Under the pieces are notes generated by a model. It searched no databases. It had not been told where the DNA came from and worked only from the letters and a program-made list of their open reading frames with translations. A program made the position numbers and the translations under genes. A stretch of DNA of 45,728 nucleotides from a virus, in IMG/VR virus record IMGVR_UViG_3300021142_000055, positions 1-45,728 of that record, one strand, 5' to 3'. Below are positions 3,356 through 27,855 of the stretch, in pieces. The stretch's first letter is position 1. Every line of letters starts with the position of its first letter.

Positions 3356-3589
3356 TTATTTTGTAACTCCAGTATCGCCTGTTTGGAGATATCCTTTAAT
3401 TGCATGCATACTACTATTAGCAATTGCGATCTTATCTTGAACCCATGCTTCTAAGTCTTCTCCATCATTTATCATAGAAGCAATTTCTTGTGCATCTTTT
3501 ATAATTTCTTCTAATTTAGCTTTGTAAGAAGCGCCTTCAGCTTCTTCATTGACTTTAAAAAAGTCAGAGTAATTTTTAATATGTTTCAT
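3356..3589 (-). CDS. Small helical phage protein with leader-like N-terminus (77 aa)
   Basis: The product begins MKHIKNYSDFFKVNEEAE and continues as helices around residues 22-70 that contain the segment LEAWVQDKIAIA. I have the impression that short proteins with a similar E/P-x-W-V/A-Q-x-K-I helix are common in large tailed phages, but I cannot name the family or its function. The N-terminal leader matches those of the genes at 14024 and 15312 (M-K/R-x-I-K-x-F/Y-x-D-F/Y) and is followed by Glu-rich residues that could serve as a processing site. First gene of the minus-strand island, transcribed away from the tail module. Confidence 0.65.
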   Translation of the reverse strand: MKHIKNYSDFFKVNEEAEGASYKAKLEEIIKDAQEIASMINDGEDLEAWVQDKIAIANSSMHAIKGYLQTGDTGVTK

Positions 3590-3628
3590 AATATATTTTA
3601 ATATTTTTCTTTATATATTCATGTGTTA

Positions 3629-3636
3629 TATAAATA
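3629..3636 (+). promoter_or_regulatory. Candidate late-type promoter TATAAATA
   Basis: TATAAATA lies 30 bases before the ATG of the first hub-module gene, in the divergent gap between the minus-strand island and the tail genes (3590-3666). It is identical to the T4 late-promoter -10 octamer, but in sequence this AT-rich a match by chance is easy. No -35 element is evident. A similar TATAAAAT lies at 28695-28702. Confidence 0.35.
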
Positions 3637-3666
3637 ATTGATATATAGAAAAAATAGAAACTATAA

Positions 3667-5946
3667 ATGGGAACATCTGCACAAGCATCAAATCCGCCTT
3701 CTCCGCCATATTTAATAGAGATTGTAGGTTCTACGCCTGCTGGTTTAAATGTAAATTATCTTTCGCCAGCTCCGGAAGTATATAATAATGCACCTGATAC
3801 AAGAAGCACTAATATTAAAGGCATATCAATACCTACTGGTACTGTTGCTGAAATATCGCAAGCAATTGGTGGCATTAAACAAACCGGTGCAGTTTCTACC
3901 CCGTCAACAGTTAAGACACCTGCAATATTAACAAGAACTGAAGCTGATGTAAGATCTTCATATCCAACAGGTACAGTTTACCCTGATACAACTTCAATAG
4001 GTGGAATTGGAGGCGTATCAACTATAACAGGAGATGTTGCAGCTAGTGGAGTTGGGGGTTTAAACTATGGTGCAAATGAAGTTCCTCTTGATCCTAGATT
4101 AGTTTATCTTGTATCTGAAACTGATAATTCAGTAATATATTCGTTTACATCAAAAGAAGATATACAAGCACCTCTTATAGACGGGTTTATTGTAAAAGAC
4201 CCAGCTGATGGCAAAACATTAATAAGTGCTAACTCAAATAAGTTTAGTGTTGACGATGGCCGAAAATTAACCGAGTTTTACGGGGTTCCTTCTATTATGA
4301 ACTATAATGCTTACATTAACATACAAGCAGCTGGAGGTAAAGCAGGTAACCAATTTTTAATTGATAGAGAAAATCAACCACGTTTTTATGAATTTAGTGG
4401 AGGTGGGATTCAAAATACTGAAACTTCTCATAAAGGTGATTTAACAGTAAAAGGACTTGTTGAATGGTCAAACCAAGGAAATAATTATAAATTTCCTTAT
4501 AGATATCAAGATTTCGTTTACTTAAAATGGTGGAAAAAAATACCACTTAATTATATGATAACTCTTAGGAGATACCCAGCGCCTTGTTTAGATTCAGTAG
4601 GTTCTGCTGAAGACGCAAGAGGGGAAATATCAAAAGATAAAACATTGCCTGTTGCTACAGCTGTAACATTTTTAGGAGAAGAAACAGGTAATAAAATATC
4701 AAGTATAATTGGTCCTATTGAAGCAGGTTTAAAATGGAAAGAAATTAAAGCAGATGTATGGGAAGTTAATTTTGATGGACAGAGAGCTAGAGCAGATTCA
4801 CCAGCGCCTGGATTAGCTAAATTGTTAGGATTAGTAACAAAAGGGGCAGTAGGAGCAAAGCCACAACTTGATAATGGTACTCCATTGGACCCTTATAATA
4901 ACGGTCCGTATGCAAATAAAGTTTTAGGTCCAGTAACAGTTATTGATAGCACAAGAGCAAGAGATCGTGGCGTTACATTTAAACATGATTTATCTTTAGT
5001 TTTTGAATATTCAGCAAGATCTATCGGTGGAATAAATACAAAAGCTGCTATGCTTGATATCATAGGTAACTTAATGATCTTAACTTATAATGAAGCACAA
5101 TTCTGGGGCGGTATGAACCGATACATGCCTATGGGGCAACAAGGAGATCTTGACCCTTTCCTTGGAGGTCCTGCTGGTAGATCAGCTTGGCTAAACGGTA
5201 ACCCAGAAGGTTTCTTTAAAGTTGTAGCGGATCAATTTGCTTCTGCTGCTCAAGTTATAGGTGATGCATTTAATAAGTTTTTTGATGATCCTGTTGGCGG
5301 ATTAAAAGAACTTGCTGGTAAAGGTGCATCAGCTTACATGAAGTTAAACACAGCTGGTGCTAAAGGACAAATGCAAGGAATACATACTCTTTTAACTGGA
5401 GCACCTGTTGGTGAATGGCATGTAACTGTAGGTAACCCAATGAACCCTATGATGATGATTGGTAATTTAATATGTACTGGCATAAAATTGGAATTTAGTG
5501 ATGAATTGGGTCCTGATGATTTCCCAGCTGAACTTAAAGCAACAATATCTCTTGAGCATGGCATGCCAAGAGATAGAGCAGGAATCGAATCAATGTTTAA
5601 CCGTGGACAAGGGCGATTATATTCTCTGCCTAAAGGTTATGAAGAATCATTATCATCTGTTAATATGACTGCTGTTGACGCCACAACAGGTAAAGATTAC
5701 GGCGCAAACCCTAATGAAGCAGCTAAATTAAAAGGTTCTAACGGAACAAATTCTTCATCAGGTCAAGGAGGCACGCCTTCAACATCTCCAAATAGTAACA
5801 CGGCAGCAAAAAGAACATCACCGCTTTCAGGTGATCCTGGTGTTATAGACGGAATTTACGGTTATTGGAAACAATCGTTTGTTCCTAGAATTAAAAGTAC
5901 AACCAGTGCTATATATAGCCACGGAGTTAAATTTACAAATAGCTAA
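3667..5946 (+). CDS. Large virion protein with tail-tube-like C-terminal domain (759 aa)
   Basis: First gene of the hub module. Residues 1-130 are Ser/Thr/Pro/Gly-rich and probably extended. A central folded part (about 150-420) contains many aromatic residues. The region around residues 585-660 (GEWHVTVGNPMNPMMMIGNLI, then ELGPDDFPAELKATISLEHGMPRD, read as separate segments) resembles the tube-type beta domain of tail-tube, tube-initiator and baseplate-hub proteins. The C-terminus, after residue 670, is again low-complexity. By position next to gp53-, gp27- and gp5-like genes I infer a role in the hub or tube initiation (T4 gp48/gp54 position), but the family is not certain. It is much longer than those T4 proteins (about 320-365 residues). 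Confidence 0.6.
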   Translation: MGTSAQASNPPSPPYLIEIVGSTPAGLNVNYLSPAPEVYNNAPDTRSTNIKGISIPTGTVAEISQAIGGIKQTGAVSTPSTVKTPAILTRTEADVRSSYPTGTVYPDTTSIGGIGGVSTITGDVAASGVGGLNYGANEVPLDPRLVYLVSETDNSVIYSFTSKEDIQAPLIDGFIVKDPADGKTLISANSNKFSVDDGRKLTEFYGVPSIMNYNAYINIQAAGGKAGNQFLIDRENQPRFYEFSGGGIQNTETSHKGDLTVKGLVEWSNQGNNYKFPYRYQDFVYLKWWKKIPLNYMITLRRYPAPCLDSVGSAEDARGEISKDKTLPVATAVTFLGEETGNKISSIIGPIEAGLKWKEIKADVWEVNFDGQRARADSPAPGLAKLLGLVTKGAVGAKPQLDNGTPLDPYNNGPYANKVLGPVTVIDSTRARDRGVTFKHDLSLVFEYSARSIGGINTKAAMLDIIGNLMILTYNEAQFWGGMNRYMPMGQQGDLDPFLGGPAGRSAWLNGNPEGFFKVVADQFASAAQVIGDAFNKFFDDPVGGLKELAGKGASAYMKLNTAGAKGQMQGIHTLLTGAPVGEWHVTVGNPMNPMMMIGNLICTGIKLEFSDELGPDDFPAELKATISLEHGMPRDRAGIESMFNRGQGRLYSLPKGYEESLSSVNMTAVDATTGKDYGANPNEAAKLKGSNGTNSSSGQGGTPSTSPNSNTAAKRTSPLSGDPGVIDGIYGYWKQSFVPRIKSTTSAIYSHGVKFTNS

Positions 5947-5948
5947 TT

Positions 5949-6563
5949 ATGATAACTTTTACATTAACCCAAGATACTAAAAGTATAATAACAAATCCAA
6001 ATGATAATGTTCAATATGTTGATTTAATTGCTAAGGATATTGTTTATGCTGATAACGGTACTCCTCCACAAGGTGTATCATACTTTTTAGTAAATGAAGA
6101 TACAGCGATGCGATGCGACTTAATATCTAAAAGTATGTATGGTAATTATGATCACGTTGAAAAAATTTTAAAATTTAATGGCATAAGTAACCCTTTTTCA
6201 ATTGATAATGGTGACATTCTTATTCAGTGGGATGTATTTAGTTTAGAGAGAAATATGCGTAGCGTTAATAATGATGAACAAAACAAACTTGATGTACGTA
6301 CTCAATATTTAACACCTGAGAAAAAATCAAAAGTTGATCCTACATTAAAAGAATTTAATAAGAGATTAGCTGCAAAGAAAACTCCTGATACTGCACTGCC
6401 ACCTAATTATGCTAATTTCGGTGATAAAGAAATTGAATTAAGAAATGGAGTTCTTGTAATGGGACCGAATGTAAGTAAAGGAAGCAACCTAAATAGTGGT
6501 AATGATCCATTGTCAAAAACACAATTTATCAATAACTTAGTTAAAAACAGAACAAACGGTTAA
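5949..6563 (+). CDS. Baseplate wedge protein, gp53/LysM-like (204 aa)
   Basis: Residues 53-95 carry the pattern of the LysM-like fold of T4 gp53: CDLISKSMYGNYDHVEKIL, then a turn with FNGISNPFSI and NGDILIQW. In T4, gp53 joins wedge sectors around the hub. The length (204) is close to T4 gp53 (196). Residues 100-150 are charged and Lys-rich, and the end is Asn-rich. It starts 3 bases after the preceding gene and ends 3 bases before the hub gene, consistent with an assembly operon. A LysM-like domain in this location is structural rather than peptidoglycan-binding. Confidence 0.75.
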   Translation: MITFTLTQDTKSIITNPNDNVQYVDLIAKDIVYADNGTPPQGVSYFLVNEDTAMRCDLISKSMYGNYDHVEKILKFNGISNPFSIDNGDILIQWDVFSLERNMRSVNNDEQNKLDVRTQYLTPEKKSKVDPTLKEFNKRLAAKKTPDTALPPNYANFGDKEIELRNGVLVMGPNVSKGSNLNSGNDPLSKTQFINNLVKNRTNG

Positions 6564-6565
6564 AT

Positions 6566-8074
6566 ATGGCAGAAGATAATATTGTTATTAGATCACTTTT
6601 TAGCCCATCAATACAACTTGATGATATTGCTTTAGATGACCTTTTTACAGGAACGTCTCCTGATTTGGAAAATCTAAAAGGATCTCCTACAGGTAGGCAA
6701 TATCAAAATACATTAGGCACAGATTACCCATTTATTATTATTAACAATTACACATTTGCAGTTCATGAAATAATAAATTTTGAAATTGATGCTACAGGGT
6801 TTTTGCCTGAACTTAAACTTACAATAGCTTTAACAAGTACAAATGTTTTTAAAACAGTAGGTTTTCCAAAAGATGGTGATATTGCTTCAGTATTTATAAG
6901 AGCTAAAAATGATGCTTTTAAACCTGTAAGAAATGATTACTTAATTACATTTGTTGATAGTGGTCCTGGTGGTGCAGAAGGTAGAGGATCAACAATTGAA
7001 ATAAGAGGTGTCCTTTTTATACCACATTTAGAAGATGAAGTTATAAAAAATTATGAAGGAACTAGTTTTGAAGTTTTACAACAAGTTGCTAAAAATTTAA
7101 AGTTAGGCTTTGCAACAAATGAGGAAAGTACAAGTGATAGCCAAGTTTGGATATGCCCTAATGATACTTTAAAAAATTTCATAATGAATATCACTGAGCA
7201 TTCATGGAAAGATGAAAAAAGCTTTTATAAATGTTACATTGATATTTATTATCATTTAAATTTTATAAATGTCAATAACCAAATAGCAGGAGAAGGTAAA
7301 CTTAGTGCAGGTATTTTAGATATCGTATTTATGACCGATGATAAATCAGATACAAACTTAGAAAAAGGATCACAACAAATGTCTAAGAAATTCTTTTCTG
7401 ACATGGATTCTTTTAGTGGAACAAACTCTTTTATACAAACTTACACAATACAAAATAATAGTTCAGCAATATCAAAAAGGTGGGGATATAAAACATATGC
7501 ACAATTTTATAGTCAAGCAACTAAAGGTACTTGGAGTATTTATGTTGATCCTATTATTACAGAAGGATCACATGAAGACAAAATGTTACTTAAAGGTAGG
7601 CCTTATCCTAAGGCCGCTGATGGGACAGCTTCTGAAAAATATTGGGAAACACAGAATAAATACATTTGGCTAGGAATTCAATATAAAGATTCACATGATA
7701 TGTATCTATATTCTCAGCTATGGAATAAAAGAAACTTAGAAGAACTTGATAAGCTATATTTAGAAATTGAGATAACAAGATGGAATCCTAACGTTTACAG
7801 AGGAGAAAAAGTTCCAATCCTATTACATTCTTTTGGTGATACATTTGATAGAACAGCTAATGCAACTCCTGGGGAAGCAAATTTACCAGCTAATGAAACA
7901 GCGCCAATTGCTCAACAGCTATATAGCGGTTATTACATGATTGATGGTTTAAAAATTAAATACACAATTGCAATGCCAACAAGAACATCTGAAGGTAGCG
8001 GCGAAGTTACACCAGGCATTACGCAAATTCTATTATTGAGAAGAAGAGAATGGCCGGTTCCTGCTACAGGATAA
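6566..8074 (+). CDS. Baseplate hub protein, gp27/gpD-like (502 aa)
   Basis: Forms the trimeric hub ring onto which the spike docks. The segment around residues 165-188 (NYEGTSFEVLQQVAKNLKLG) is characteristic of gp27/late-control-D hub proteins, as is the C-terminal SGYYMIDGLKIKYTIA pattern at about residues 452-470. The first 150 residues are beta-rich with the YPFIIINNYTF opening typical of the first hub barrel. It is longer than T4 gp27 (391 aa), with an extra insertion around residues 215-330. It lies directly upstream of a tube-like protein and the spike gene, the expected grouping. Confidence 0.8.
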   Translation: MAEDNIVIRSLFSPSIQLDDIALDDLFTGTSPDLENLKGSPTGRQYQNTLGTDYPFIIINNYTFAVHEIINFEIDATGFLPELKLTIALTSTNVFKTVGFPKDGDIASVFIRAKNDAFKPVRNDYLITFVDSGPGGAEGRGSTIEIRGVLFIPHLEDEVIKNYEGTSFEVLQQVAKNLKLGFATNEESTSDSQVWICPNDTLKNFIMNITEHSWKDEKSFYKCYIDIYYHLNFINVNNQIAGEGKLSAGILDIVFMTDDKSDTNLEKGSQQMSKKFFSDMDSFSGTNSFIQTYTIQNNSSAISKRWGYKTYAQFYSQATKGTWSIYVDPIITEGSHEDKMLLKGRPYPKAADGTASEKYWETQNKYIWLGIQYKDSHDMYLYSQLWNKRNLEELDKLYLEIEITRWNPNVYRGEKVPILLHSFGDTFDRTANATPGEANLPANETAPIAQQLYSGYYMIDGLKIKYTIAMPTRTSEGSGEVTPGITQILLLRRREWPVPATG

Positions 8075-8090
8075 CATTAATATATAAATT

Positions 8091-10070
8091 ATGCAATATA
8101 CAGATAAATTATCAAAAGGGTTTTTAACAGGTAAAGGTACCTTTATAACCAACCAATCGTCACCAGGACAAATTGGTGCAACAAGGTGGGATGTTGAAGA
8201 TCCTACATATCTTGGTTTTTATTGGCATATTATTCCTGAGACTGTAACTGACCCACTTAATTATGATTTGGATTATTTACCACAAGGATTATTTTTAGGA
8301 GCAAACAACAATAGTGTAGCAAATGCAAGTGTTGTTGGTGATCCAAATAATAAAAATTATGGTAAAGAACACCCAGATTCAGCCGTGAGCTATTTACAGA
8401 GAATTGGCGAATATTACAGAGCTGATATGATTAAGGAGTTTCGTTATGGTATGATAAAAATATTAGAAGAAAGCCCTTGGTCATTTGACAAAATCACAGG
8501 ATTAGGTGAGATGACTAAAATTAATCCTAAAGATAATTTTAGAGCAAAAGATAAAAAACTTATCTTTGAAGGTAATGACACAATGAACATGCGTCTTACT
8601 TATTTAATGGATTTATATCGCAAAGCTGCATTTGATGCAGAATATATGAGATGGATGTTGCCTGAAACTCAACGTTATTTCTCAATGAGAGTAGTTGTGG
8701 CTGAAATAAGAACGATGAACGATGGACATGGTGGCTTATTTGAGCCTGCCACATTTTTAGAATTTGTTTTTGATTATTGTGAATTTACAATTATTGAAGA
8801 CGGCCTTGATCATATACAAGATCTTAATAATTATCCTGGAGAATCTGCTAGAGTTAAAATAGGAATTAAAGTTGGGAGAATTAGAGAAAAAAACTCTTAT
8901 GGCTTATTAGGAGCAATATTGTTTGACACAATATATCCTTATTACAGAGATGCTAGTTTTTCTACATCAGCATTTACATCTATTACACAACCAGCAGGTA
9001 GAGGCGATAAAGTAACACAGGCTTTTTCAGCTATGCCTGCGTATAGATCGCCTGGAGGTAATGCAGACTTTACTTACGGAGATGATAAAAGAAGACAAAC
9101 AGAACAAGCTTTTCAGTCAGCAAATGGTGTAGTAAAAACAGGTGGTATGAATGGCATCTTAGGTGCCTTTTCAAATGCAGTATCTAGGGATGTTAAAAAT
9201 TTAGTTCAAACAGCTGTTAACGGAGCTGTTTTAGGCAATGTTTACGGCTTATCTATTGCTAATTTATCTGCTCAGATAAGTAGCATTGCACAGGATCCTT
9301 TGTCAGCAGCGCAAAGTACAATATCAAAGTACGGCACTTCATCATCTAGAGGTCCTTTAGAAAATGTTTTTGTAGATCAAGCAACGACAGCTGGATTACA
9401 AACTTTTGCTAGTCAGTTAGCATCAGCTCAAGCTGAATATTCATTAGCTATTAAAGCATCAAAAGCATCACAAGATATTTCAGGAAATCTGGGTAAAGAG
9501 TCTATAGGAAACGCAGCTAATATTATAGGAAATCCGGGTAAAGAGTCTTTAACATCAGCATTTATACCTAATTCTAATCCAGGTAAAGAGCAATTAGGAA
9601 ACGCTGCAAATCCTGAAGGTAACCCAGGTAAAGCTTTTAACAATCCTTTAGCTTCATCAGGATTAAATAATGCTTTAGATAAAATTTTATTAGGAGGTGC
9701 TACTTCATCATTAAGTGGCAATTTAGGCAAAGAATTATTATCGTCTGTGCCATCTTCAAGTATAGCTCCTGGAAATGTATCCTTAGATGGTGAAAAAACT
9801 AATATTCTTGGTAACCCTGGCAAAACAAACTTAATTGCGCCTAATGCAGAACAAGTTAATTTAGGTAAAGAGTATCTTGCTACTAATGGTGCTAATACTG
9901 AAGGACAACCTGGAAATGTTAAACTAACAGGTGAAAACTCAAATACAGATGGTAACCCAGGTTCTTTATCTCTAGATGGAGCTAATAGAACACAACAAAA
10001 ATTAGGTAAAGAACCATTAATTGCACCAAATATTGATAAAACTAATTTAGGAAATATTAACTTAAAATGA
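8091..10070 (+). CDS. Tube-like hub protein with NPGK-repeat C-terminus (659 aa)
   Basis: Residues 1-290 look like a tail-tube/tube-initiator domain: YLMDLYRKAAFDAEYMRWML, then ETQRYFSMRVVVAEIR and FDYCEFTI are typical of gp19/gp48/gp54-type proteins. Residues 300-460 are Ser/Ala/Gly-rich. From about residue 463 to the end there are imperfect repeats of 14-17 residues built on G-N-L/P-G-K-E-x-L, separated by Asn/Ala/Ser-rich spacers. I count about ten. The start is the ATG at 8091, 16 bases after the hub gene. The stop overlaps the spike start (ATGA at 10067-10070), so the two are translationally coupled, suggesting a matched ratio in the hub. The repeat tail is unusual for a tube protein. 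Confidence 0.65.
   Translation: MQYTDKLSKGFLTGKGTFITNQSSPGQIGATRWDVEDPTYLGFYWHIIPETVTDPLNYDLDYLPQGLFLGANNNSVANASVVGDPNNKNYGKEHPDSAVSYLQRIGEYYRADMIKEFRYGMIKILEESPWSFDKITGLGEMTKINPKDNFRAKDKKLIFEGNDTMNMRLTYLMDLYRKAAFDAEYMRWMLPETQRYFSMRVVVAEIRTMNDGHGGLFEPATFLEFVFDYCEFTIIEDGLDHIQDLNNYPGESARVKIGIKVGRIREKNSYGLLGAILFDTIYPYYRDASFSTSAFTSITQPAGRGDKVTQAFSAMPAYRSPGGNADFTYGDDKRRQTEQAFQSANGVVKTGGMNGILGAFSNAVSRDVKNLVQTAVNGAVLGNVYGLSIANLSAQISSIAQDPLSAAQSTISKYGTSSSRGPLENVFVDQATTAGLQTFASQLASAQAEYSLAIKASKASQDISGNLGKESIGNAANIIGNPGKESLTSAFIPNSNPGKEQLGNAANPEGNPGKAFNNPLASSGLNNALDKILLGGATSSLSGNLGKELLSSVPSSSIAPGNVSLDGEKTNILGNPGKTNLIAPNAEQVNLGKEYLATNGANTEGQPGNVKLTGENSNTDGNPGSLSLDGANRTQQKLGKEPLIAPNIDKTNLGNINLK
9478..10065 (+). 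repeat. Coding repeat array: about ten GN(L/P)GK units
   Basis: Within the 659-residue protein, units such as GNLGKESIGNAANIIGNPGK recur from 9478 to the end of the gene. Core residues Gly, Asn, Leu/Pro, Gly, Lys and often Glu-x-Leu are kept, while spacers vary from 9 to about 20 residues. At the DNA level GGTAAAGAG/A and AA(C/T)CC(A/T/G)GG(T/C)AAA words recur but are diverged, indicating old repeats under protein-level selection rather than recent duplication. Confidence 0.75.
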
Positions 10071-10780
10071 AAGGATTAAATTTAGACATATTAAAAGGAT
10101 CTTATTTAGTAGGAACGATAGTTGATAATAATGATCCTGACAAAGAAGGACGAGCAAGAGTTCGAGTATTTGGACTTTATGATGATATACCTGATGATAA
10201 ATTACCTTGGTTTCACCCAGTAGGAAAAACTATGTTTGCTGGAGGCGCTGACGGTTTTGCTAATATTTCTATTCCGAAAATTAACACAATTGTACAAGTA
10301 CATTTTTCTGAAGGTAATTTATACTCAGGAGAATACTCGTCAATACAAAATTTTAGTGAAGACGTTAAAAATGAAATATCTGACACATACTTAAATTCGC
10401 ATGTACTTGCTTATGATGCTGATGAACAATTAAAATTACTTTACACACCAGGTAAAGGACTAATAATTTATTTAAAAAGTTCGGAAATAAATATTGCAGC
10501 TGATTCAAGTATAACAATATTACACAAAGATTCAAAGAGTTTAATATCTTTAGTAGGTGATACGATAACAATTGCGTCCGATAATACTGTAAACATTACA
10601 TCTGAAAATTGTAATGTTGATTCTCCTAATATTACTTTAGGTAAAGGAGCAACTGAATCTTTAATATTAGGAGATACATTTAAGGAATTGTTTGATCTTC
10701 ATACTCATCCAGGTCCTAATACTCCACCAACATTGCCTTTACCTACAGGTGTTTTAAGTAAAAATACTAAAACTAAATAA
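10067..10780 (+). CDS. Baseplate central spike, gp5/gpV-like without lysozyme (237 aa)
   Basis: The membrane-piercing tip of the tail. Residues 10-95 form an OB-fold: GTIVDNNDPDKEGRARVRV is the usual first strand pair, followed by PWFHPVG and a VQVHF strand. Residues 125-200 are short repeated beta strands with alternating hydrophobics, as in the trimeric beta-helix needle. His212-Thr213-His214 near the C-terminus matches the His-x-His pattern that coordinates metal at the tip of P2 gpV-type spikes, here followed by 23 further residues. There is no lysozyme domain, unlike T4 gp5 (575 aa). The gene overlaps the tube-like gene by 4 bases. Confidence 0.85.
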   Translation: MKGLNLDILKGSYLVGTIVDNNDPDKEGRARVRVFGLYDDIPDDKLPWFHPVGKTMFAGGADGFANISIPKINTIVQVHFSEGNLYSGEYSSIQNFSEDVKNEISDTYLNSHVLAYDADEQLKLLYTPGKGLIIYLKSSEINIAADSSITILHKDSKSLISLVGDTITIASDNTVNITSENCNVDSPNITLGKGATESLILGDTFKELFDLHTHPGPNTPPTLPLPTGVLSKNTKTK

Positions 10781-10781
10781 T

Positions 10782-11372
10782 ATGTCATTAGAACGTCAAA
10801 AACAAATACTAGGCACAGCAGGTGATTTAGGTAAAGCTTTACCTTTTTTAGAAGCAATTGCTATTATTGAAAATATTGCTAAAGAATCGCCTGAAATAAA
10901 AAAACAATATGATATTATCAAAAAAGAGAGTAAAGAAAGACGTGAAAGAGGTGATGATGAGAAGCAAATAAAAGATGATGAGGATAAAAAAACCAAAGAG
11001 GTTCTTGATAACTTTAAAAAAGGGCTTAACGATTTTGTCGAACAACAGATTAATATCATAAAACATCAATATAGAGTTGTTAGCGATGGAATTAATCAAA
11101 TTCCTATAGATGTAAGAACAACAATTGCTAATATTATTGTGCCACCTGCTGTAACTGCGCCTCCTGGAGCAGCTAATCCACTTTATGCATTAAATGTAGC
11201 GTTAACTACAAAACATGCTCTGCAATCAACTTTATTAATTATTGTAGTAGCGTTCACAGCAGTAATAGAAGCTGCTAATGCGATTAAATATGCACTTCCT
11301 GATTTTGTCCTTGATACATATCAAGTAATAAAGGATACGTTTGTAATAATATCTGCTATTCCTGAACCTTAA
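10782..11372 (+). CDS. Hub-cluster protein with charged helix and hydrophobic segment (196 aa)
   Basis: Unrecognised protein, one base after the spike stop codon. Residues 34-80 are a long, strongly charged helix likely to form a coiled coil (KKESKERRERGDDEKQIK). Residues 110-135 are Pro/Ala-rich. Residues 147-167 are a hydrophobic stretch (ALQSTLLIIVVAFTAVIEAA) that could insert in a membrane or pack in a helical bundle. The architecture would suit a small internal tail or tip component that meets the membrane, but this is inference from composition and position only. Confidence 0.65.
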   Translation: MSLERQKQILGTAGDLGKALPFLEAIAIIENIAKESPEIKKQYDIIKKESKERRERGDDEKQIKDDEDKKTKEVLDNFKKGLNDFVEQQINIIKHQYRVVSDGINQIPIDVRTTIANIIVPPAVTAPPGAANPLYALNVALTTKHALQSTLLIIVVAFTAVIEAANAIKYALPDFVLDTYQVIKDTFVIISAIPEP

Positions 11373-11415
11373 CAGTTTTTTTAAAAAGATATATACCATA
11401 TCAAAAAATAAAAAT

Positions 11416-12618
11416 ATGAACATTCAAAAAACAACAACATTAGAAGAATCTTCTTGGGATGTAATTATGACCCAAGATAGAAAAACAGCAAACCCAGAAA
11501 TTTTAAAGAAATATGGCGTTAAAGTTTTTAACAATGAGCCATACGCTTTAGATTTTTATGAAAAAGTTTTCTTAGGCGCAGATCCTGAAAGCAAAGAACC
11601 TAAAATAGGAGAAACTAGGAAAATTATAAACATTACTGCTGTAAATGAGAGAGAAATATTAGTAACTTTAAGTGGTCTTATTGACGCAGTCATTGATGTG
11701 AGAAGTGAAAAGCATTTTTGTTCTTTATTAAACATATCACCAGCTGAACTAATTGAATGGCTAAAACTTGATGAAAATAAAGAAGCATTTGTTGCTAGCG
11801 GATATACTGTTGTTGTTGAAATGATTAAACCTTATGTTAAAACATCGTTATCAAAAGGACATTCATTAAAAACAAAAGCTGAGTTTTTCAATGAAATACG
11901 TAAACCATCAGCTGCTTATTACGGTAAAATAAAAGAAAAGAATGGCGGTGGATTTATTATAAATGTACAAGGTGTTGATGGATTCTTACCTGGATCATTG
12001 GCTGCTACAAACATTGTACGCGATTTTGATTCTATGATAGGAAAGGAAATTCCTGTTATGGTTGAAGACTATTTAAAAGAAAGTGATACATTTGTTTTTT
12101 CTTATAAAAAATATATTAACACTGTTCTTAACTCAAAAATTAGTGATCTTGATTTGGACCAAAAATACATAGGTACAATAACAGGTTCAGCTAAGTATGG
12201 ATTGTTTATTGAGTTTAACGATATATTCACAGGACTTATACATACAAGTAAAATGACTCCTGCTACATATTCAAAATTTAATAAAGGATCATTTAAAGCA
12301 GGTGATACAATTGAGTTTTGGATTAAAGAAATTACAGAAGATAAAAAATTAATCTTAACTGATGAAGATCCTTCAATTAGAAGAGGTCAACTTGAAGAAT
12401 TTAAAAATGAAAATTTAGGAAAAACTAAAGAAGCTGAAGTTGTATCAGTTCAGTCTTTTGGGGTTCTTTTTAAATTACAAAAAGATATCGTTGGTTTAAT
12501 TTCTCAAAAAGAAATTAAGTCAAAGAAAAAGAACTTTGCAGTTGGTGACAAAGCAATGGTCACAATTGACAGAGTTTATAATGATAAAATTTTCCTTTCG
12601 TTACCAAATGAAGATTAA
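11416..12618 (+). CDS. Ribosomal protein S1-like, multiple S1 domains (400 aa)
   Basis: The protein is built of S1/OB RNA-binding domains at about residues 163-234 (AYYGKIKEKNGGGFIINVQG, then VDGFLPGS), 246-318 (KYIGTITGSAKYGLFIEFN, then GLIHTSKM) and 334-398 (EAEVVSVQSFGVLFKL, then VGLISQKEI), with a degenerate one at 65-147. In bacteria S1 brings mRNA to the 30S subunit. Bacterial S1 usually has four to six domains and about 350-600 residues. Its presence among tail genes is unusual. A 43-base gap precedes it, containing an AT-rich GATATATACC element, so it may have its own promoter. The last 11 bases overlap the amidoligase-like gene. Possible roles are redirecting translation to phage mRNA or acting as an RNA chaperone. 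Confidence 0.85.
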   Translation: MNIQKTTTLEESSWDVIMTQDRKTANPEILKKYGVKVFNNEPYALDFYEKVFLGADPESKEPKIGETRKIINITAVNEREILVTLSGLIDAVIDVRSEKHFCSLLNISPAELIEWLKLDENKEAFVASGYTVVVEMIKPYVKTSLSKGHSLKTKAEFFNEIRKPSAAYYGKIKEKNGGGFIINVQGVDGFLPGSLAATNIVRDFDSMIGKEIPVMVEDYLKESDTFVFSYKKYINTVLNSKISDLDLDQKYIGTITGSAKYGLFIEFNDIFTGLIHTSKMTPATYSKFNKGSFKAGDTIEFWIKEITEDKKLILTDEDPSIRRGQLEEFKNENLGKTKEAEVVSVQSFGVLFKLQKDIVGLISQKEIKSKKKNFAVGDKAMVTIDRVYNDKIFLSLPNED

Positions 12619-14020
12619 AAAGAATTACTCAAAAACTGAAGTTTTAGACGGTGTAAGAATCGGTTTTGAATTTGAAATGTATTCATCGCTTGATGTTTTT
12701 GAAACAGCAAAACAATTGGCTAAATATACTAAGAAAAGAGTTGTAGTTCCACTATCTCTTAGTGATATTAATAACCCAAAACCTTTATATCATTCACCAG
12801 TTGCACCAACAGCTGATATTTTTAAACTTGAACCTGATTATTCAGGAGGTAAAAATATGTGTGAGCTTGTAACTGGTCCTATGAAATATAGCGATGCCAG
12901 AAACATCTTAATTAAAGTTTTTGAGTGGATTCAATCAAATGGTTATACAAATGAAAGATGTTCTATTCACGTAAACATGAGTATTGATGGTGATGTTATA
13001 CCTACTCTTTCAACAATAGAAAATATTAACATACCTAAATTTATACTTTCTTTTGACGAAGGAAAAATCTTTGATAAATTCCCATCAAGAAAAGATAGTG
13101 TTTATGCTAGAAGTATAAAACAAATTAGGCCAAACCGAGTACTTTTTTATTCTCCTACTTTAGAAGATTTTAGTAGATCTACTTTAACACTTCCTTCTGA
13201 TGAAAAATATTACGGAGTTAATTTTTTGAAAGCTGAAAAAGGTTATCTTGAATACAGATACTTAGGCGGAAAAGATTATGAAAAGAAAAGTAAAACAATT
13301 CTTGATATCATTGAGTATATAGCTATTCATTTATATGATACTTTAAACTTTACAGGATTTACTGAAAAGGAAAGATCTGACTTTAAAAAGATGACAGATA
13401 TTGATAAGAAAATATATGAAGGATTTGCTAGATATGCAGATTTTAAAAAGAAGTTTCCTGATATTAAAGTATCTATTGATATGGTTGATGATCCACAAGT
13501 ACTTGAAGGAGTTTGGGTAAATTTACGAGATAAACTTTTTGATTTAATTATAACAGGTAAAATGTCAAAAGGAGAATTTAATTATGATACTGAATTAGGA
13601 AGATATCAATTAAAAAAGACAAAAGTTGTTAATTGTAAACTTTCTGATTTTGAATTTATTGAATGTGATATTGAAGGTATCATAACAAGATCTTGGTTTT
13701 ATGAATGTAACTTGAAAAATAGTCGTATTACTGAAAGTGAGTTTTTAAAATCAAACACAATAGATTTTTCAAAAATTGCTGAATGCGAATTACATGTAGG
13801 TAATATCTGTAATGACTGTTATATTGAAAATAAAAAACTTGCAATTAACTGTGAAGTTAATCGTGGGGTTATTCGTAATGGTGAAATTGGTAAATTAGCA
13901 AAATTATCAAAAGATACATTAGTTGTTGAAGGCCAGCCTGCTGAAGCTGGTAATGCTGGAAGCAGTTCTTTTAGTGATCCTAATCAAGACAAAAACAACA
14001 AGAAAAGAAAAAAAGAATAG
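12608..14020 (+). CDS. Amidoligase-like enzyme fused to pentapeptide-like beta-helix (470 aa)
   Basis: I choose the ATG at 12608 (MKIKKNYSKTEV); upstream in-frame codons lie inside the S1-like gene. Residues 14-225 have the glutamine-synthetase-like amidoligase pattern (COOH-NH2 ligase superfamily): GFEFEM at 19-24, ELVTGPM at 86-92, SIHVNMS at 119-125 and LEYRYLGGKD at 214-223. Such enzymes use ATP to form amide bonds. Residues 336-440 show repeated short units with hydrophobic or Cys positions every five residues (CKLSDFEFIECDIEG; WFYECNLKNSRI), suggesting a pentapeptide-type right-handed beta-helix. The tail 455-470 is Lys-rich. It is followed by a very acidic small protein and, 1.3 kb on, an amidotransferase-like gene, the usual kind of partner. 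The substrate is unknown. Confidence 0.7.
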   Translation: MKIKKNYSKTEVLDGVRIGFEFEMYSSLDVFETAKQLAKYTKKRVVVPLSLSDINNPKPLYHSPVAPTADIFKLEPDYSGGKNMCELVTGPMKYSDARNILIKVFEWIQSNGYTNERCSIHVNMSIDGDVIPTLSTIENINIPKFILSFDEGKIFDKFPSRKDSVYARSIKQIRPNRVLFYSPTLEDFSRSTLTLPSDEKYYGVNFLKAEKGYLEYRYLGGKDYEKKSKTILDIIEYIAIHLYDTLNFTGFTEKERSDFKKMTDIDKKIYEGFARYADFKKKFPDIKVSIDMVDDPQVLEGVWVNLRDKLFDLIITGKMSKGEFNYDTELGRYQLKKTKVVNCKLSDFEFIECDIEGIITRSWFYECNLKNSRITESEFLKSNTIDFSKIAECELHVGNICNDCYIENKKLAINCEVNRGVIRNGEIGKLAKLSKDTLVVEGQPAEAGNAGSSSFSDPNQDKNNKKRKKE

Positions 14021-14023
14021 GCT

Positions 14024-14395
14024 ATGAGATACATTAAAAAGTTTGAGGATTATGTTGCTTCTTTTAAAAGCAACAAGATTAATCATAACGATGAAGATAC
14101 AAAAGATGATAAAATTGCTGAAGTATCAACAAATGATAAAGGTTTTGTAATTGAATGCGATGGTGATACAATTGCTATTGAAAGTGGGTTAGATGAAGGT
14201 AATGAAGAAGTTCCTGCTGAAGAAATCACTAAAGCACTAGAAAAACTTAATGTTAAAAAAGTTTCTTTTGAAAATGAAGATGGTGAGAAAGAAACTCATG
14301 AAGTAAATGAATTTCTTAAGCACTTAAACCCACTTAGATGGAAATTATCAAAACGTCATAGATCTATATATGGTCATGTTAAAAGTGATGAATAA
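14024..14395 (+). CDS. Very acidic small protein with leader-like N-terminus (123 aa)
   Basis: A 123-residue protein beginning MRYIKKFEDYVASF, the same leader seen at 15312 and in the minus-strand gene at 3356-3589. About a quarter of residues are Asp or Glu, concentrated between 20 and 95. The C-terminal 25 residues switch to basic (RWKLSKRHRSIYGHVK). No family recognised. It begins 3 bases after the amidoligase-like gene. It could be a packaged internal protein, a DNA mimic or the substrate of the neighbouring amidoligase. None of these is shown by the sequence. Confidence 0.65.
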   Translation: MRYIKKFEDYVASFKSNKINHNDEDTKDDKIAEVSTNDKGFVIECDGDTIAIESGLDEGNEEVPAEEITKALEKLNVKKVSFENEDGEKETHEVNEFLKHLNPLRWKLSKRHRSIYGHVKSDE

Positions 14396-14429
14396 TCATT
14401 TTGAAAACTTTTAAAATAATTTAAGCAAA

Positions 14430-15215
14430 ATGACTAGAGATGAATTAATAGAATTAATAAATTCTGAGATAACAGGAAGCGGGTCATTACCATATTCAGT
14501 ACCTCCTCGTGAGTCTGAACGTATTATTAATCAAGCTCTTAATTGGTTTTATATTAATTATGGGCCTGCTGTTGAAACACAATATTATGTAATTGAAAAA
14601 TCTTGGTTTACCGACCCTGAGTTTAAAAAAACACGAAGTATTCTATTACCTGATTGTGTTATGTCTGTTACTGAATGTAAAGAAATAAGCGGAGCAGGTA
14701 GGTTAGGTTCAATTGACCGCGATTTTTCTGATAACAGACTTCTTGCTGCTGAAATTTATCTTGCGCCTTTTGCTTCAGATGATTTAGTTTTGAGAACTGC
14801 TCAATATTCTTATTGGGATTTAACTGCAGCATTCATTCTTGATAAAGTTAGATTTGATTTTAATAGAAATACACACAGACTAAAAATAACAGGTCGTGAT
14901 CCTAAAAAGGATGTTTTTATTGATACTCTTGTTAAAATTGAAGAAACAAAATTATATGATGATTGGTTTTTTCAGAGATGGGTTACAGCTCAAACAAAAA
15001 TATCATTAGCAAATATTATAGGATTCTTTCAATTTAATCTTCCTGGAGGAATTGAAGTTAATGGAGATAACTTAAGAGAATCAGGTAAAGAAGAATTGGA
15101 ACAAATAAAACAGAGAATTGATGACGAAAATGCACCTGATTGGTTTTTCGTTTTCCACTCTTTTATAACGCCTATCATTTGTATAGGAAGTTTATTAAGT
15201 AATTTTACAATCTAG
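14430..15215 (+). CDS. Virion-type protein, possibly neck/tail completion (261 aa)
   Basis: Residues 1-45 (MTRDELIELINSEITGSGSL, then PRESERIINQALNWFYINYG) form amphipathic helices, and residues 60-215 are mixed alpha/beta. The opening resembles helical connector or neck proteins of large myoviruses, but I cannot assign it to T4 gp13, gp14 or gp15. After PDWFFVFH (residues 235-242) there is a short hydrophobic tail (SFITPIICIGSLLSNF) that looks like an extension. It ends with TAG at 15213-15215. The 96-base gap after it is A/T-rich and holds only a negligible 20-codon frame. Confidence 0.55.
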   Translation: MTRDELIELINSEITGSGSLPYSVPPRESERIINQALNWFYINYGPAVETQYYVIEKSWFTDPEFKKTRSILLPDCVMSVTECKEISGAGRLGSIDRDFSDNRLLAAEIYLAPFASDDLVLRTAQYSYWDLTAAFILDKVRFDFNRNTHRLKITGRDPKKDVFIDTLVKIEETKLYDDWFFQRWVTAQTKISLANIIGFFQFNLPGGIEVNGDNLRESGKEELEQIKQRIDDENAPDWFFVFHSFITPIICIGSLLSNFTI

Positions 15216-15311
15216 AGTATTTTCATAATGAATTTAAAAAAACAGCCAGTGCTAAATAAAAATATTTCATATGAGCTTATTGTTTATTAAAATATTTAAA
15301 AATAAAAAAGT

Positions 15312-16025
15312 ATGAAATATATTAAACTTTTTGAAGACTTTATAAGTAACAAACCAAAGCCTAAGATTGTAATGTATTATGATAAAGGAGTTAGTGTTGA
15401 CACTGCTAGCATTTGGTCCAACTTTTTTCGTGAATATTTTGCTATTGAGCCACATGAAATGAGATCTGACGAATTTGATTATAAAGATTTTAAAAACGCG
15501 GATCTTATTGTTATTCCAGGCGGTTCTAGTGAACTTGAAATTACAGCTATGACTGATAGCGGTAAAGAAGGTCTGAAAAAATTTGTTAATGATGGTGGAA
15601 AAGTTCTTGGCGTATGTGCTGGTGCTATTTTAATATCTGAATGTTATGATTGGTCTTTAGGAATTATTAAAGCACATCATAATAAAGATTTTCATGAGCA
15701 CATTCAAAATAAAACAGCATTTTTAAATTTTAAATTTGAAAATGCAGGCAAAGAAGTTTTTAGCACATTACTTGATGAAGTAAATCTTTATTATCATTGG
15801 GGTCCTGTGTTTGTTAGTGCAGATTCATCTTGTGAAGTTTTATTAAGGTTTAATAGTGAAGTGCCACGAGAATCTAAAGAATCTGAATCATCAATTGATA
15901 AAATAGCATCTATTTATTCAGCATACGGAAAAGGACATGCATTAGCAATAAGTCCACATATAGAAAAAAGTGAAAAAGTTAAATATCTATTAGCTAATGC
16001 TATAAATTACTTATTAAATAAATAA
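15312..16025 (+). CDS. Class I glutamine-amidotransferase-like protein, BPL_N type (237 aa)
   Basis: Residues 17-235 match the amidotransferase-like fold of the biotin-protein-ligase N-terminal (BPL_N) family: PGGSSELE at 69-76, the nucleophile elbow GVCAGA with Cys102, YYHWGPVF at 160-167, and ISPHIE at 213-218 giving His216 and Glu218 to complete a triad. It could release ammonia from glutamine or act as a hydrolase on a peptide-like substrate. Residues 1-15 (MKYIKLFEDFISNKP) are extra to the domain and match the leader of two other proteins here. Its stop overlaps the gp25-like start (TAATG at 16023-16027). With the amidoligase-like gene at 12608 it forms a candidate modification pair. Confidence 0.75.
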   Translation: MKYIKLFEDFISNKPKPKIVMYYDKGVSVDTASIWSNFFREYFAIEPHEMRSDEFDYKDFKNADLIVIPGGSSELEITAMTDSGKEGLKKFVNDGGKVLGVCAGAILISECYDWSLGIIKAHHNKDFHEHIQNKTAFLNFKFENAGKEVFSTLLDEVNLYYHWGPVFVSADSSCEVLLRFNSEVPRESKESESSIDKIASIYSAYGKGHALAISPHIEKSEKVKYLLANAINYLLNK

Positions 16026-16387
16026 TGTTAAAAGAAATTTATTGTAGAAATGAAAATGATCCTTTTTATGTTAATAGGATTTTGGAAACAAAAGATCCAA
16101 TAGAAGCTCTATTAACAAAATTAAGGATGATCCTGTTTACTAAAAGAGGCGAAATTTTAGGTGAACCGGATTTAGGCTTAGATCTTGATTCTATGCTATT
16201 TCAACTTAATTATAATGGTTTCCAAATACAAAGAGATTTTTATGCACAGATAGGTAAGTATTGCCCTGAAGCTAAAAATTATAAAATAGTAATTGAAGTG
16301 AATTTTGTCCCTGGAACTGTTAGAGATATATGTTACATAGATATATACATAGACGGTACAAAATATCTTGGTGTCGTCGGAAAATAA
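16025..16387 (+). CDS. Baseplate wedge protein, gp25-like (120 aa)
   Basis: gp25 is the core wedge subunit that triggers sheath assembly in contractile systems. The diagnostic segment is at residues 41-59, RGEILGEPDLGLDLDSMLF, matching the conserved G-E-x-x-G-x-P-x-x-G pattern. The length is typical (T4 gp25 has 132 residues). The start overlaps the previous stop by one base, and it is followed 10 bases later by the gp6-like gene, the order seen in many contractile phages. Confidence 0.9.
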   Translation: MLKEIYCRNENDPFYVNRILETKDPIEALLTKLRMILFTKRGEILGEPDLGLDLDSMLFQLNYNGFQIQRDFYAQIGKYCPEAKNYKIVIEVNFVPGTVRDICYIDIYIDGTKYLGVVGK

Positions 16388-16397
16388 GACATCATAT

Positions 16398-18101
16398 ATG
16401 GGATTAGACATTTTTAATTATAGCAGAATACGTTTTGACCAACTTTATCAAGACTCTAAAGATTACCTAACAAATAAATTTTTACAAGTAGGTGAAGTAT
16501 TCTCACCAGCAAGTGCATACGGACAACTTTTAGGTGTTATAATTGATTTAGGTAAATTAATTTTTTATTACGTAGAAGATAGTATAACAGAGCTAAACAT
16601 TTATACTGCAACTCGTGATACTTCTGTTCGTAGTTTAGCAAGAATAGCTGGTCATAACCCAACAAGAGCAATTGCTGCAAGCGGTACTGTTTATCTTACA
16701 TATAATGGTAACCCTATTGATATGTACGGTAATACTGCAATCATACCAAATTACACTCGTCTTTCAGACAATTCAACTGGTTTAACATACACACTATCTT
16801 TTGATAGCGAAGATTTGCGTATGCAATTAAGTGGAAGTACAACTGTTGAAGCTAAAGTTGTTCAAGGAGTTATTGAATCTCAGACAGTAACAGGAACAGG
16901 CGAAGTTTTACAATCATATAATATAAATCCAAAAAGAGGATCACAAATTGACAATTTCTTTATTAATGTTTATGTTAATGGAGAAGTTTGGAAAGTTTAT
17001 GATTCAATATACGATATGCCTTACCAAGTAAATGGTGTTGTTGTTAAAACAGGGATTAATGCAGGTATTGACTTGTACTTTGGAAATGGCTTTTTTGGTG
17101 CTATACCTCCTGTAGGATCTTCTATAAGAGTTGAATATTTATCAACAAGCGGTAACGCAGGTAATATATTAGAAGGAGAAGTAGCACAGTTTCAATTTAT
17201 AGATGATATTTATGATTTAGCAGGTAACACTATTTCTGCTAATGATGCAATAGGTATATCTATAGCAAATCCTATTATATTTGGTTCAGATTCAGAACCT
17301 ATTTTTTTAACTAAAATATTAGCTCCAAAAACTTCACGTTCTTATGTTTTAGCAAATACTGATTCATATGTTTATTTCTTAGAAAAATTTAATATATTTA
17401 GTGTCATAGATGCTTTTAGTACTTTTAATGATAATGATATTTCAGATGATAATGTAGTTTATCTTTTTTTAATACCTGACGTAAATAAAAGAAAGCCTTC
17501 TAATGATGATTATTTTACAGTGCCTATTAATCTTTTTACATTAACAGATGCTGAAAAAAATAAAGTATATGACTTCATTGAACAAAGCGGACAAAAAATT
17601 GTAACTACAGTCATAAAAATTGTTGATCCTATTGTTAAAAAATATGTTGTTAACATAAACATAACAGCATATGCAGGATATAGCAAAGATAGCTTAACAC
17701 AACAAATAATATTAAAATGTAGTGATTACTTTTTAGCAAATCGTAGACGTGATCGTATACCAAAATCTGATCTTATTGGAATCATTGAAACTATTCCAGG
17801 AGTTGACTCTGTTAACTTATGGTTTGTTAGCGAAGAGAATGAAGCTTTTAAATCAAATACTGCAAATGTAAGTTCAGCTGATATAGGCATAGATTCTTTT
17901 GGCGATATAATAATTAACCGCGGAGAATATGCACTTATTAGAGGAGGGTGGTCTGATAGATCAGGGTATTTTTATAATGATACATCTATACAGTCTAAAC
18001 CAGGAAGTATAAATATTGCATACGGCGCTGATACATCTAATTCTTTTAATATGGAATTACATCGTATTAATTTAGATAACATAAAATCAACTACAAATTA
18101 A
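16398..18101 (+). CDS. Baseplate wedge protein, gp6/Baseplate_J-like (567 aa)
   Basis: The start is the ATG at 16398; an in-frame TTG at 16368 lies inside the gp25-like gene. The N-terminus (FDQLYQDSKDYLTNKF, about residues 11-26) and residues 49-85 (DLGKLIFYYVEDSITELNIY, then RSLARIAGHNPTRA) are characteristic of Baseplate_J/gp6 proteins. The C-terminal part has YVVNINITAYAGYSK, the beta-alpha domain, and RIPKSDLIGIIETIPGVDSV, another hallmark. gp6 forms the iris ring of the baseplate around gp25. T4 gp6 has 660 residues. The gene precedes an 88-residue protein and the giant wedge protein. Confidence 0.9.
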   Translation: MGLDIFNYSRIRFDQLYQDSKDYLTNKFLQVGEVFSPASAYGQLLGVIIDLGKLIFYYVEDSITELNIYTATRDTSVRSLARIAGHNPTRAIAASGTVYLTYNGNPIDMYGNTAIIPNYTRLSDNSTGLTYTLSFDSEDLRMQLSGSTTVEAKVVQGVIESQTVTGTGEVLQSYNINPKRGSQIDNFFINVYVNGEVWKVYDSIYDMPYQVNGVVVKTGINAGIDLYFGNGFFGAIPPVGSSIRVEYLSTSGNAGNILEGEVAQFQFIDDIYDLAGNTISANDAIGISIANPIIFGSDSEPIFLTKILAPKTSRSYVLANTDSYVYFLEKFNIFSVIDAFSTFNDNDISDDNVVYLFLIPDVNKRKPSNDDYFTVPINLFTLTDAEKNKVYDFIEQSGQKIVTTVIKIVDPIVKKYVVNINITAYAGYSKDSLTQQIILKCSDYFLANRRRDRIPKSDLIGIIETIPGVDSVNLWFVSEENEAFKSNTANVSSADIGIDSFGDIIINRGEYALIRGGWSDRSGYFYNDTSIQSKPGSINIAYGADTSNSFNMELHRINLDNIKSTTN

Positions 18102-25500: not shown

Positions 25501-26262
25501 ATGGCAAGAACGAAAAACAAAGCCAAATCCGATGAATACTTTGATGAAGTATTCCCATTAGGATATACACCAACAGTTCAATCTAAATTTAATATTGAAA
25601 AAATTGGTGTTGATTTAAAATGCAAAAATCCAAATCAAAAAACTTTTATAAATTTAATTTGTGATAATAAAATCACAATCGCAGCTGGTCCTGCAGGAAC
25701 CGGTAAAACTTACTTAGCTTGTGCTCAAGCATTAAAACTGTTAAAGACTGATACCCGTTTTAAAAGAATAATTCTCGTAAAGAGTGTAACGGTTTTAGAA
25801 GGTGAAGAAGTAGGCTTCTTAAAAGGAGATCTTAAAGAAAAAATGTATCCTTTTACTGTTTCATTTCTTGATAACTTTCATAAACTTATTGGTGAAGGAT
25901 TAACGCAAATCATGCTTGATATGGGTATGATTCAAGTTTTACCGCTAGCATATATTCGTGGCCGTTCTATTGATAACGCAATCATTATTGTTGACGAAGC
26001 GCAAAACATCTCAAAAAAGAACATGCGATCTACATTAACTCGTATAGGCACAGACACAAAAATGATTATCACCGGAGATACGAAACAAATTGATATGAAG
26101 AATAAAGATATATCTTCACTTGAATTAGTTGTTCAACTATTTGCAGGCAAACCTAACATAGGAACAATGGAGTTTGAGAAAAAGGATATCGTGAGAGACC
26201 CTATAGTCCAACTTATTGAAGAAGTTTTTGATGAATGGGAAGATTCACAAAAGAAAAATTAA
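25501..26262 (+). CDS. phoH: PhoH-like ATPase (253 aa)
   Basis: A P-loop ATPase of the PhoH family, which is common in large phages and thought to act in RNA metabolism. Walker A is GPAGTGKT at 63-70, Walker B is IIIVDEAQN at 161-169, and the sensor motif TGDTKQID is at 191-198. The SVTVLEGEEVGFLKGDLKEK region, about residues 95-114, is the conserved PhoH helix pair. The length is typical for the family. Its stop codon overlaps the stop codon of the convergent minus-strand SET-domain gene, with no terminator between them. Confidence 0.9.
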   Translation: MARTKNKAKSDEYFDEVFPLGYTPTVQSKFNIEKIGVDLKCKNPNQKTFINLICDNKITIAAGPAGTGKTYLACAQALKLLKTDTRFKRIILVKSVTVLEGEEVGFLKGDLKEKMYPFTVSFLDNFHKLIGEGLTQIMLDMGMIQVLPLAYIRGRSIDNAIIIVDEAQNISKKNMRSTLTRIGTDTKMIITGDTKQIDMKNKDISSLELVVQLFAGKPNIGTMEFEKKDIVRDPIVQLIEEVFDEWEDSQKKN

Positions 26263-26711
26263 AAAGGATATTTTTTAATATACCCACTTTTAGCATTAAA
26301 CCAATGTTCGCCATAAGAAACAAATAACTGTTCACCGGCGGATATTGGTTTTATTGTTTGTATACCTATTAAATTTAATTGATAATAAGCAATAAACTGA
26401 CAATTATTATCATCTTTATGATTATACAACCCAGCCCATCCTAAAGGAAGTCCGCCATCATTTTGCCAGTTTACTGTGTATTGGTCAAGTTTTAAATCAT
26501 TATCCGACATACCTTCAGCTCGACAAGTCCAAATTGTCATCTCCATAACATTTTTAGGATAAACAATAATAGGAGCTATTTCAACAATAGTGTTTTCATT
26601 AATACTTTGAGTAGTAAATACACCCCAGCCATTAATCTCAGGCACAGGATGTATTTCTAATCTTGAGTCTATAAAAGGATTATAATTGAAGTCCTGATGG
26701 TTTTTTTGCAT
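26259..26711 (-). CDS. SET-domain protein (150 aa), putative lysine methyltransferase
   Basis: SET domains transfer methyl groups from S-adenosylmethionine to protein lysines. Motifs seen: GWGVFTTQSINENTIV at 28-43 (the G-x-G SAM-binding strand), LYNHKDDNNCQ at 95-105 (the N-H-x-x-x-x-N pseudoknot motif, Asn97 and His98), and EQLFVSYGEHWF at 127-138 with Tyr133. There are no flanking pre- or post-SET zinc clusters, as in short bacterial and viral SET proteins. It is the second gene of a minus-strand pair. Its start overlaps the end of the Zn-ribbon gene by 32 bases, and its stop overlaps that of phoH. Confidence 0.8.
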   Translation of the reverse strand: MQKNHQDFNYNPFIDSRLEIHPVPEINGWGVFTTQSINENTIVEIAPIIVYPKNVMEMTIWTCRAEGMSDNDLKLDQYTVNWQNDGGLPLGWAGLYNHKDDNNCQFIAYYQLNLIGIQTIKPISAGEQLFVSYGEHWFNAKSGYIKKYPF

Positions 26712-27135: not shown

Positions 27136-27855
27136 ATGTTTAGTGAAAGTAAATTAAAAACATTGCTGTTTTTTGATATTGAAACAGCTGGTAAGTATCC
27201 TAATTATGAAGAGTTTGAAAAAGCAGATCCTGCAGGTGCTGAGATCTGGCATAAGAAAATGAATCGTCAAAAAATTGAAGACTACAAAACAGGATATGAA
27301 CAAAACGTTGCTCTCTATCCAGAGTTTGGACAAATTGTTACATTGTCTTATGGTTTGTGGAATCCTGATAAATACGGCGCTCAGAGATATAATATAGGTT
27401 CAATAACTCTTCCTGCATATGAAACAGAATATGATTCTTTAAAAAGAATTGCGATGTTATTTCATAATGCAACGGCAACCGGTTTAGTTCCTACAGGATG
27501 GAATATCAAAAACTTTGACGTTCCGTGGATTATTCGTAAATTACATAATGCAGGTTTACAAGTTCCATCTTGTTTAAGTACTTATGACAAAAAGCCTTGG
27601 GAAGTTGGTGTTATTGATTTGAAAGAAATGTGGAAAAGTAATTCAAGCCTTGATGTAACTTTTGAAGAAGCTGCTTATAGTATGGGAATCCCAACTCCTA
27701 AAGATGATATTGATGGAGGACAAGTACACGCAACATATCATAACGACGGCTTGGATAGAATTCAAACTTATTGTGAAAAAGATGTTAAGACAATGATTCA
27801 TCTTGTTAGTGCTCTATCAAATATATACTATCCTAGTTTACTAAAAACTACATAA
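27136..27855 (+). CDS. DnaQ/PolB-type 3'-5' exonuclease (239 aa)
   Basis: An RNase H-fold DEDDy exonuclease. Motif ExoI is FFDIETAG at 12-19 (Asp14, Glu16). ExoII is GWNIKNFDVPWI at 121-132 (Asp128). ExoIII is YCEKDV at 212-217 (Tyr212, Asp216). The spacing and the Asp-x-Glu-Thr-Ala-Gly start resemble stand-alone exonucleases related to the proofreading domain of family B polymerases. No polymerase domain is attached. It probably degrades single-stranded DNA 3' ends in repair or recycling. The glycosylase gene follows after one base, linking both to DNA repair. Confidence 0.85.
   Translation: MFSESKLKTLLFFDIETAGKYPNYEEFEKADPAGAEIWHKKMNRQKIEDYKTGYEQNVALYPEFGQIVTLSYGLWNPDKYGAQRYNIGSITLPAYETEYDSLKRIAMLFHNATATGLVPTGWNIKNFDVPWIIRKLHNAGLQVPSCLSTYDKKPWEVGVIDLKEMWKSNSSLDVTFEEAAYSMGIPTPKDDIDGGQVHATYHNDGLDRIQTYCEKDVKTMIHLVSALSNIYYPSLLKTT

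Follow-up and report, generated by a model that had tools for sequence, protein, structure and literature searches.

The DNA analysed here (the window), a virus record of 45,728 bases, is a fragment of an uncultured giant phage and carries baseplate, neck and tail genes. Three of its proteins start alike, as the first-pass annotation had pointed out: the open reading frames (ORFs) lie where it placed them, and a position-specific model of the shared leader finds these same three. P1 (77 aa, beginning MKHIKNYSDFFKVNEEAEGAS; 3356..3589, minus strand, from the ORF list) has no family match and carries the leader MKHIKNYSDFFKVNE (3545..3589, minus strand), with a predicted cut after Glu15. P2 (123 aa, beginning MRYIKKFEDYVASFK; 14024..14395, plus strand, from the ORF list) starts with MRYIKKFEDYV (14024..14056, plus strand). 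P3, a GATase/BPL_N-like protein by Pfam (beginning MKYIKLFEDFISNKPKPK; 15312..16025, plus strand), starts with MKYIKLFEDFI (15312..15344, plus strand), which lies outside the domain. The leader consensus is M-[KR]-x-I-K-x-[FY]-[ED]-x-[FY]; where a cut site is present, the leader runs to 13-15 residues.

Leader-bearing genes of the window

Beyond the leader, the three proteins are mutually unrelated (BLASTP, from residue 21 on), and none matches a T4 internal-protein family in PHROGs or Pfam. The earlier statement that they differ in fold is sustained for P3, which has a class-I GATase/BPL_N domain; for P1 and P2 no Pfam match exceeds the family cut-off, so that the contrast is limited to P3. 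An assignment of P1 to PHROG 14971 (virion structural protein) was rejected as too weak for use (E 0.005).

Back-translated patterns retrieved no close homologue of P1 from viral contigs. A homologue in record G002 is 56% identical, leader included. The boundary of the predicted cut (hyphens mark such boundaries here) reads VNE-EAEG in P1, and TNE-EAEG and MNE-ESEG in its homologues. Since NE-E is kept at the expected position in both homologue records (G001 and G002) although the leader diverges, P1 is the likeliest of the window's proteins to be cut. Removal of the leader by a prohead protease, proposed earlier for all three proteins, is therefore plausible in P1 only, P2 and P3 having no conserved cut site.

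P3 matches BPL_N (1.4e-18) and GATase_3, and its Cys102, His216 and Glu218 are conserved with a leader-bearing homologue (two sequences compared); family match and Cys-His-Glu residues together make it a predicted enzyme of the class-I GATase/BPL_N group. This homologue, from another phage record (G031/L321), matches at 42% over the full length and likewise has the leader and no cut site; no close homologue of P3 was found in viral contigs with back-translated patterns or in the phage collection. The first strand of P3 begins at residue 19 in a low-confidence structure model (two sequences, mean pLDDT 51).

Both P2 and P3 flank the head-tail adaptor gene (PHROG 211; 14430..15215, plus strand), whose product has 261 aa here and 243 aa in relatives. 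P3 lies in a cassette (approximately 15158..16016, plus strand) that is absent in the relative L003, where the flanks of the site are ~2 bp apart. The insertion is clean, spans ~860 bp between the adaptor gene and a gp25-like gene, and changes how the adaptor gene ends. The P2 slot holds several unrelated leader proteins in relatives, or is empty of them. The variable P2 slot, the clean P3 insertion and the leader-bearing P3 homologue together indicate that leader genes act as exchangeable cassettes, as the T4 ip genes do.

Upstream of the variable slot, a conserved single protein (12536-14020, plus strand) has weak amidoligase and pentapeptide-repeat matches, and a protein of the tail gene cluster (11416-12618, plus strand) contains three S1 RNA-binding stretches. 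Elsewhere, the window encodes a PhoH-like protein (25501-26262, plus strand; 7.6e-64), a SET-domain protein (26259-26711, minus strand; Pfam 1.7e-12), a predicted 3'-5' exonuclease (27136-27855, plus strand; 1.8e-9) and a formamidopyrimidine-DNA glycosylase (Fpg/Nei) homologue (27857-28684, plus strand), whose NEIL1-type DNA-binding match is weak.

Recurrence of the leader in huge phages

Relatives were sought with the baseplate wedge (gp6-like) protein of the window (16368..18101, plus strand). A tblastn search led to huge phages, namely LR756500 (462 kb, referred to as W01), Lak phages and others, and 17 IMG/VR loci have the protein at 65-82% identity to that of the window. These nearest relatives are fragments in which no head gene or protease was found; within the 45.7-kb window, too, no head gene was found. 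The prohead protease gene that the first-pass annotation had suggested looking for is missing from the window, and an S77 protease is present in related records. Of the records that have a head module, G017 is nearest to the window (46% identity in gp6; 480 kb read out of 482 kb), and it has the leaders together with the S77 protease and gp23.

A DNA pattern for the leader gave at least 104 matches in viral contigs; among the matches listed, 94 different ORFs were kept, each 40 aa or longer. Residues 2-10 of these 94 IMG/VR leader ORFs define the position-specific model, applied at a threshold of at least 8 bits. Its training pattern was inspired by the finding itself; neither the replication in other genomes nor what is seen at the unconditioned residues 11-14 rests on that pattern.

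The leader is confirmed as real and far above chance. In the window, the model gives three N-terminal matches and none at the other ~900 ATGs. When residues 2-10 of every ORF are shuffled, the expected number of matches is 0.014 for the window (three observed), 0.22 for G017 (58 observed) and 0.19 for W01 (26 observed); the possibility raised earlier, that the leader is no more frequent than expected, does not hold within the window. All 29 ATG matches in W01 lie at ORF N-termini (0 of 1,846 internal methionines), and five records have no internal-Met match of at least 8 bits, with all-ATG counts equal to N-terminal counts. G003 has 19 N-terminal matches to the position model. The reversed pattern has no match in 14 related records, and among 84,980 prokaryote genomes a stricter leader-plus-cut DNA pattern has a single match, which lies on a MAG contig of 4.5 kb. 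In an alignment of 97 leader proteins, the consensus is limited to the first 13 positions. No isolate with exactly this leader was found, nor, in open-licence papers, any report of it in huge phages.

The number of carriers is large. G017 has 66 leader ORFs (26 with a canonical cut, 15 with a later [LIVFM]xE and 25 with no cut), often adjacent (28 pairs less than 60 bp apart); its 65 leader proteins above 60 aa each make up a BLASTP family of their own (65 in all), with no similarity after residue 20. Over 18 records, 273 leader proteins form 224 such families. Domain scans of 97 leader proteins gave ATP-grasp ligases (including RimK), nucleotidyltransferases, GNAT acetyltransferases, PNK 3'-phosphatase, RNA ligase, CHAP, PAP2, LRR and VWA/metallopeptidase domains, these labels being family names by sequence match and the functions predicted. 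In record G008 (L228-L237), many of the 32 leader ORFs belong to one repeat-bearing family (MKYLKLFENFNQSEID...), and hardly any of the 32 has the cut motif; neither portal nor protease was found in that record.

Predicted cut motif, capsid N-termini and head genes

The search pattern constrains residues 1-10 only. Immediately behind it, at residues 11-13, [LIVFM]-x-E occurs in 50 of the 94 listed leaders, compared with 0-6 of 94 (about 2%) at other offsets up to residue 60; Glu is found at residue 13 in 54 of 94. In the T4 record, IpII and IpIII read MKTYQEFIAE-A, and alignment at the cut site places the leader F/Y7 and F/Y10 on T4 Y4 and F7. In the capsid-targeting sequence (CTS) of T4, residues 4 and 7 are the main determinants of targeting, and residues 8 and 10 those of processing (PMC9026906). 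The window leaders have Y7/F10, F7/Y10 and F7/F10, that is, aromatic residues at the targeting positions.

The same motif is found at the N-termini of major capsid proteins: MIKLINE-AEI in W01, MATLINE-AEI in G014, MNLLNE-AEI in G016, MKMINE-QEI in G017, MKLINE-QEI in G019 and HLINE-AEV in G026, and again in G013, G015, G020, G022 (LINE-SE) and G030. The capsid N-termini of G012, G023 and G028 differ from this LINE-type start. PF03420 (S77, the gp21-type protease) occurs in 13 and PF07068 (gp23) in 17 of 23 leader-bearing records, S77 among others in G017 and G019; W01 has both. The protease protein (G017, G019) has many [LI]AE-N sites in its scaffold part, often ~14 residues apart, which fit the same cleavage specificity or could reflect a coiled coil.

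In seven relatives (G013, G014, G015, G016, G020, G022 and G030), a small leader-bearing protein (with a close variant of the leader in G013 and G015) is encoded between portal and protease, with an acidic tail in most; G014 has a second leader protein between protease and capsid gene. Among the contextual evidence, the gap protein ties the leader most strongly to the prohead core. It is likened to the T4 prohead core protein gp67 by position, size and the acidic end where shown; unlike it, T4 gp67 does not bear the leader. A leader family of G016 (DYPQAAKKNAQKAIDWKEKYG; L295 5356-6033) occurs inside genes annotated elsewhere as prohead protease or major capsid protein, e.g., HGTV-1 gene 11. 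In the isolate Salicola phage SCTP-2 (L362 11261-13520), neighbouring genes start with MNDIRKYMSLLE-N and MSNMKNYLKLLE-N, perhaps its own version of the leader.

Cut motifs are not universal. A conserved one is lacking in P2 and P3, and 25 of 66 leaders in G017 and most of those in G008, G009, G011 and G025 have none, which counts against a CTS reading. So does the want of head genes and protease in the window and in its nearest relatives, and so do the CHAP-domain, endolysin-like and RNA ligase leader proteins, which are not evident head cargo. The absence of a protease from G008, G009, G011 and G025 is not informative, because portal and full capsid genes are missing as well. The idea that cut-less leaders mark protease-less genomes was dropped when a more sensitive profile found the protease in the cut-less G012. 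Canonical cuts are present in 70 of 148 leaders in six LINE-type records versus 2 of 15 in three others, a comparison given without a P-value because the records are related. A non-LINE capsid start goes with cut-less leaders as a trend only, to which G019 is the exception: it has a LINE capsid N-terminus, yet canonical cuts in just 1 of 16 leaders.

Probable capsid targeting and its alternatives

The leader is most probably a capsid-targeting sequence of the T4 type. The interpretation in the first-pass annotation is partly supported. Its core, the suggestion of such a device, finds good support in the relatives, through recurrence, the [LI]xE motif, LINE-type capsid N-termini, S77 proteases and the leader protein in the portal-protease gap. 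A short amphipathic leader would recruit unrelated proteins to the prohead core during head assembly; a gp21-type protease would then cut after [LI]-x-E in many of them, and the mature proteins would remain in the head and be delivered with the DNA. We infer each of these steps (core binding, cleavage, retention in the virion and injection) from the features described above. P1 would represent the cut class, and P2 and P3 the class without a cut site. As the latter two have no conserved cut site, they would at most be targeted and stay untrimmed. That they may be targeted without trimming is the weakest step of the mechanism; in T4, Asp at position 10 of the CTS stops processing and not targeting, so that untrimmed targeting is possible (PMC9026906).

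As in T4 IPI, IPII and IPIII, a short N-terminal leader is found on unrelated proteins, an aromatic pair three residues apart stands beside [IL]xE-A, and gp21/gp23-type head genes are present, here in relatives. The consensus differs in having 13 residues instead of the 10 of T4, plus an extra Ile4. The phages described here also differ in the number of carriers, tens in a genome where T4 has three, in their enzyme cargo and in their many cut-less leaders. T4 Alt, an ADP-ribosyltransferase carried in the head and injected, sets a precedent for such an enzyme; no sequence relation to the GATase-like P3 is claimed. Ejection proteins of SPN3US-type giant phages have N-terminal propeptides that a prohead protease cleaves and that are believed to direct cargo into the head; these are mostly longer than 100 residues, in contrast to the short shared leader (PMC5694885).

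Proteins docked on the prohead core by the leader might instead serve in assembly or as a scaffold, later leaving the core or undergoing degradation, and would then not be injected effectors. A leader protein does hold the gp67/68 core-protein slot, its tail being acidic wherever the end is visible, and the core proteins of T4 are processed to small fragments (PMC5694885). The many enzyme-like domains without an evident assembly role, and the variety of leader proteins, of which one genome has up to 66 kinds, make this explanation unlikely. It is even less probable that the leader directs proteins elsewhere, for instance to the membrane or to a replication compartment, and that LxE is there by coincidence or for another protease. 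The amphipathic leader segment and the records in which the motif is nearly absent would suit such an address; the motif nevertheless has a fixed position, recurs at capsid N-termini and comes with an adjacent protease gene.

Two further explanations have hardly any probability left. The leader always stands at the gene start, as a conserved 5' RNA or translation-start element would; its codon choice is broadly like that of gene bodies and its residues are conserved whereas its codons are not, so that selection acts on amino acids. The motif is also short and rich in AT-coded residues, as a chance resemblance in an AT-rich genome would be, which is refuted by the shuffle, internal-Met, reversed-pattern and prokaryote-genome controls alike.

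For the probable capsid-targeting leader, the surprising part is its scale and its enzyme cargo; the device itself would be a variant of the known T4 kind. In T4, each of three internal proteins inhibits one type IV restriction enzyme (PMC12373910), compared with up to 66 leader candidates in a single genome here. The balance tilts slightly towards a broader proposal, in which one interchangeable leader brings tens of unrelated proteins, including many enzymes, into every head of huge T4-superfamily phages, as modular injected effectors that are partly untrimmed. If this is true, a 13-residue rule would predict which giant-phage proteins of no assigned function ride in the head and are injected, the protein-carrying capacity of the phage head would become directly testable, and many "hypothetical proteins" would turn into candidate early effectors or counter-defence proteins.
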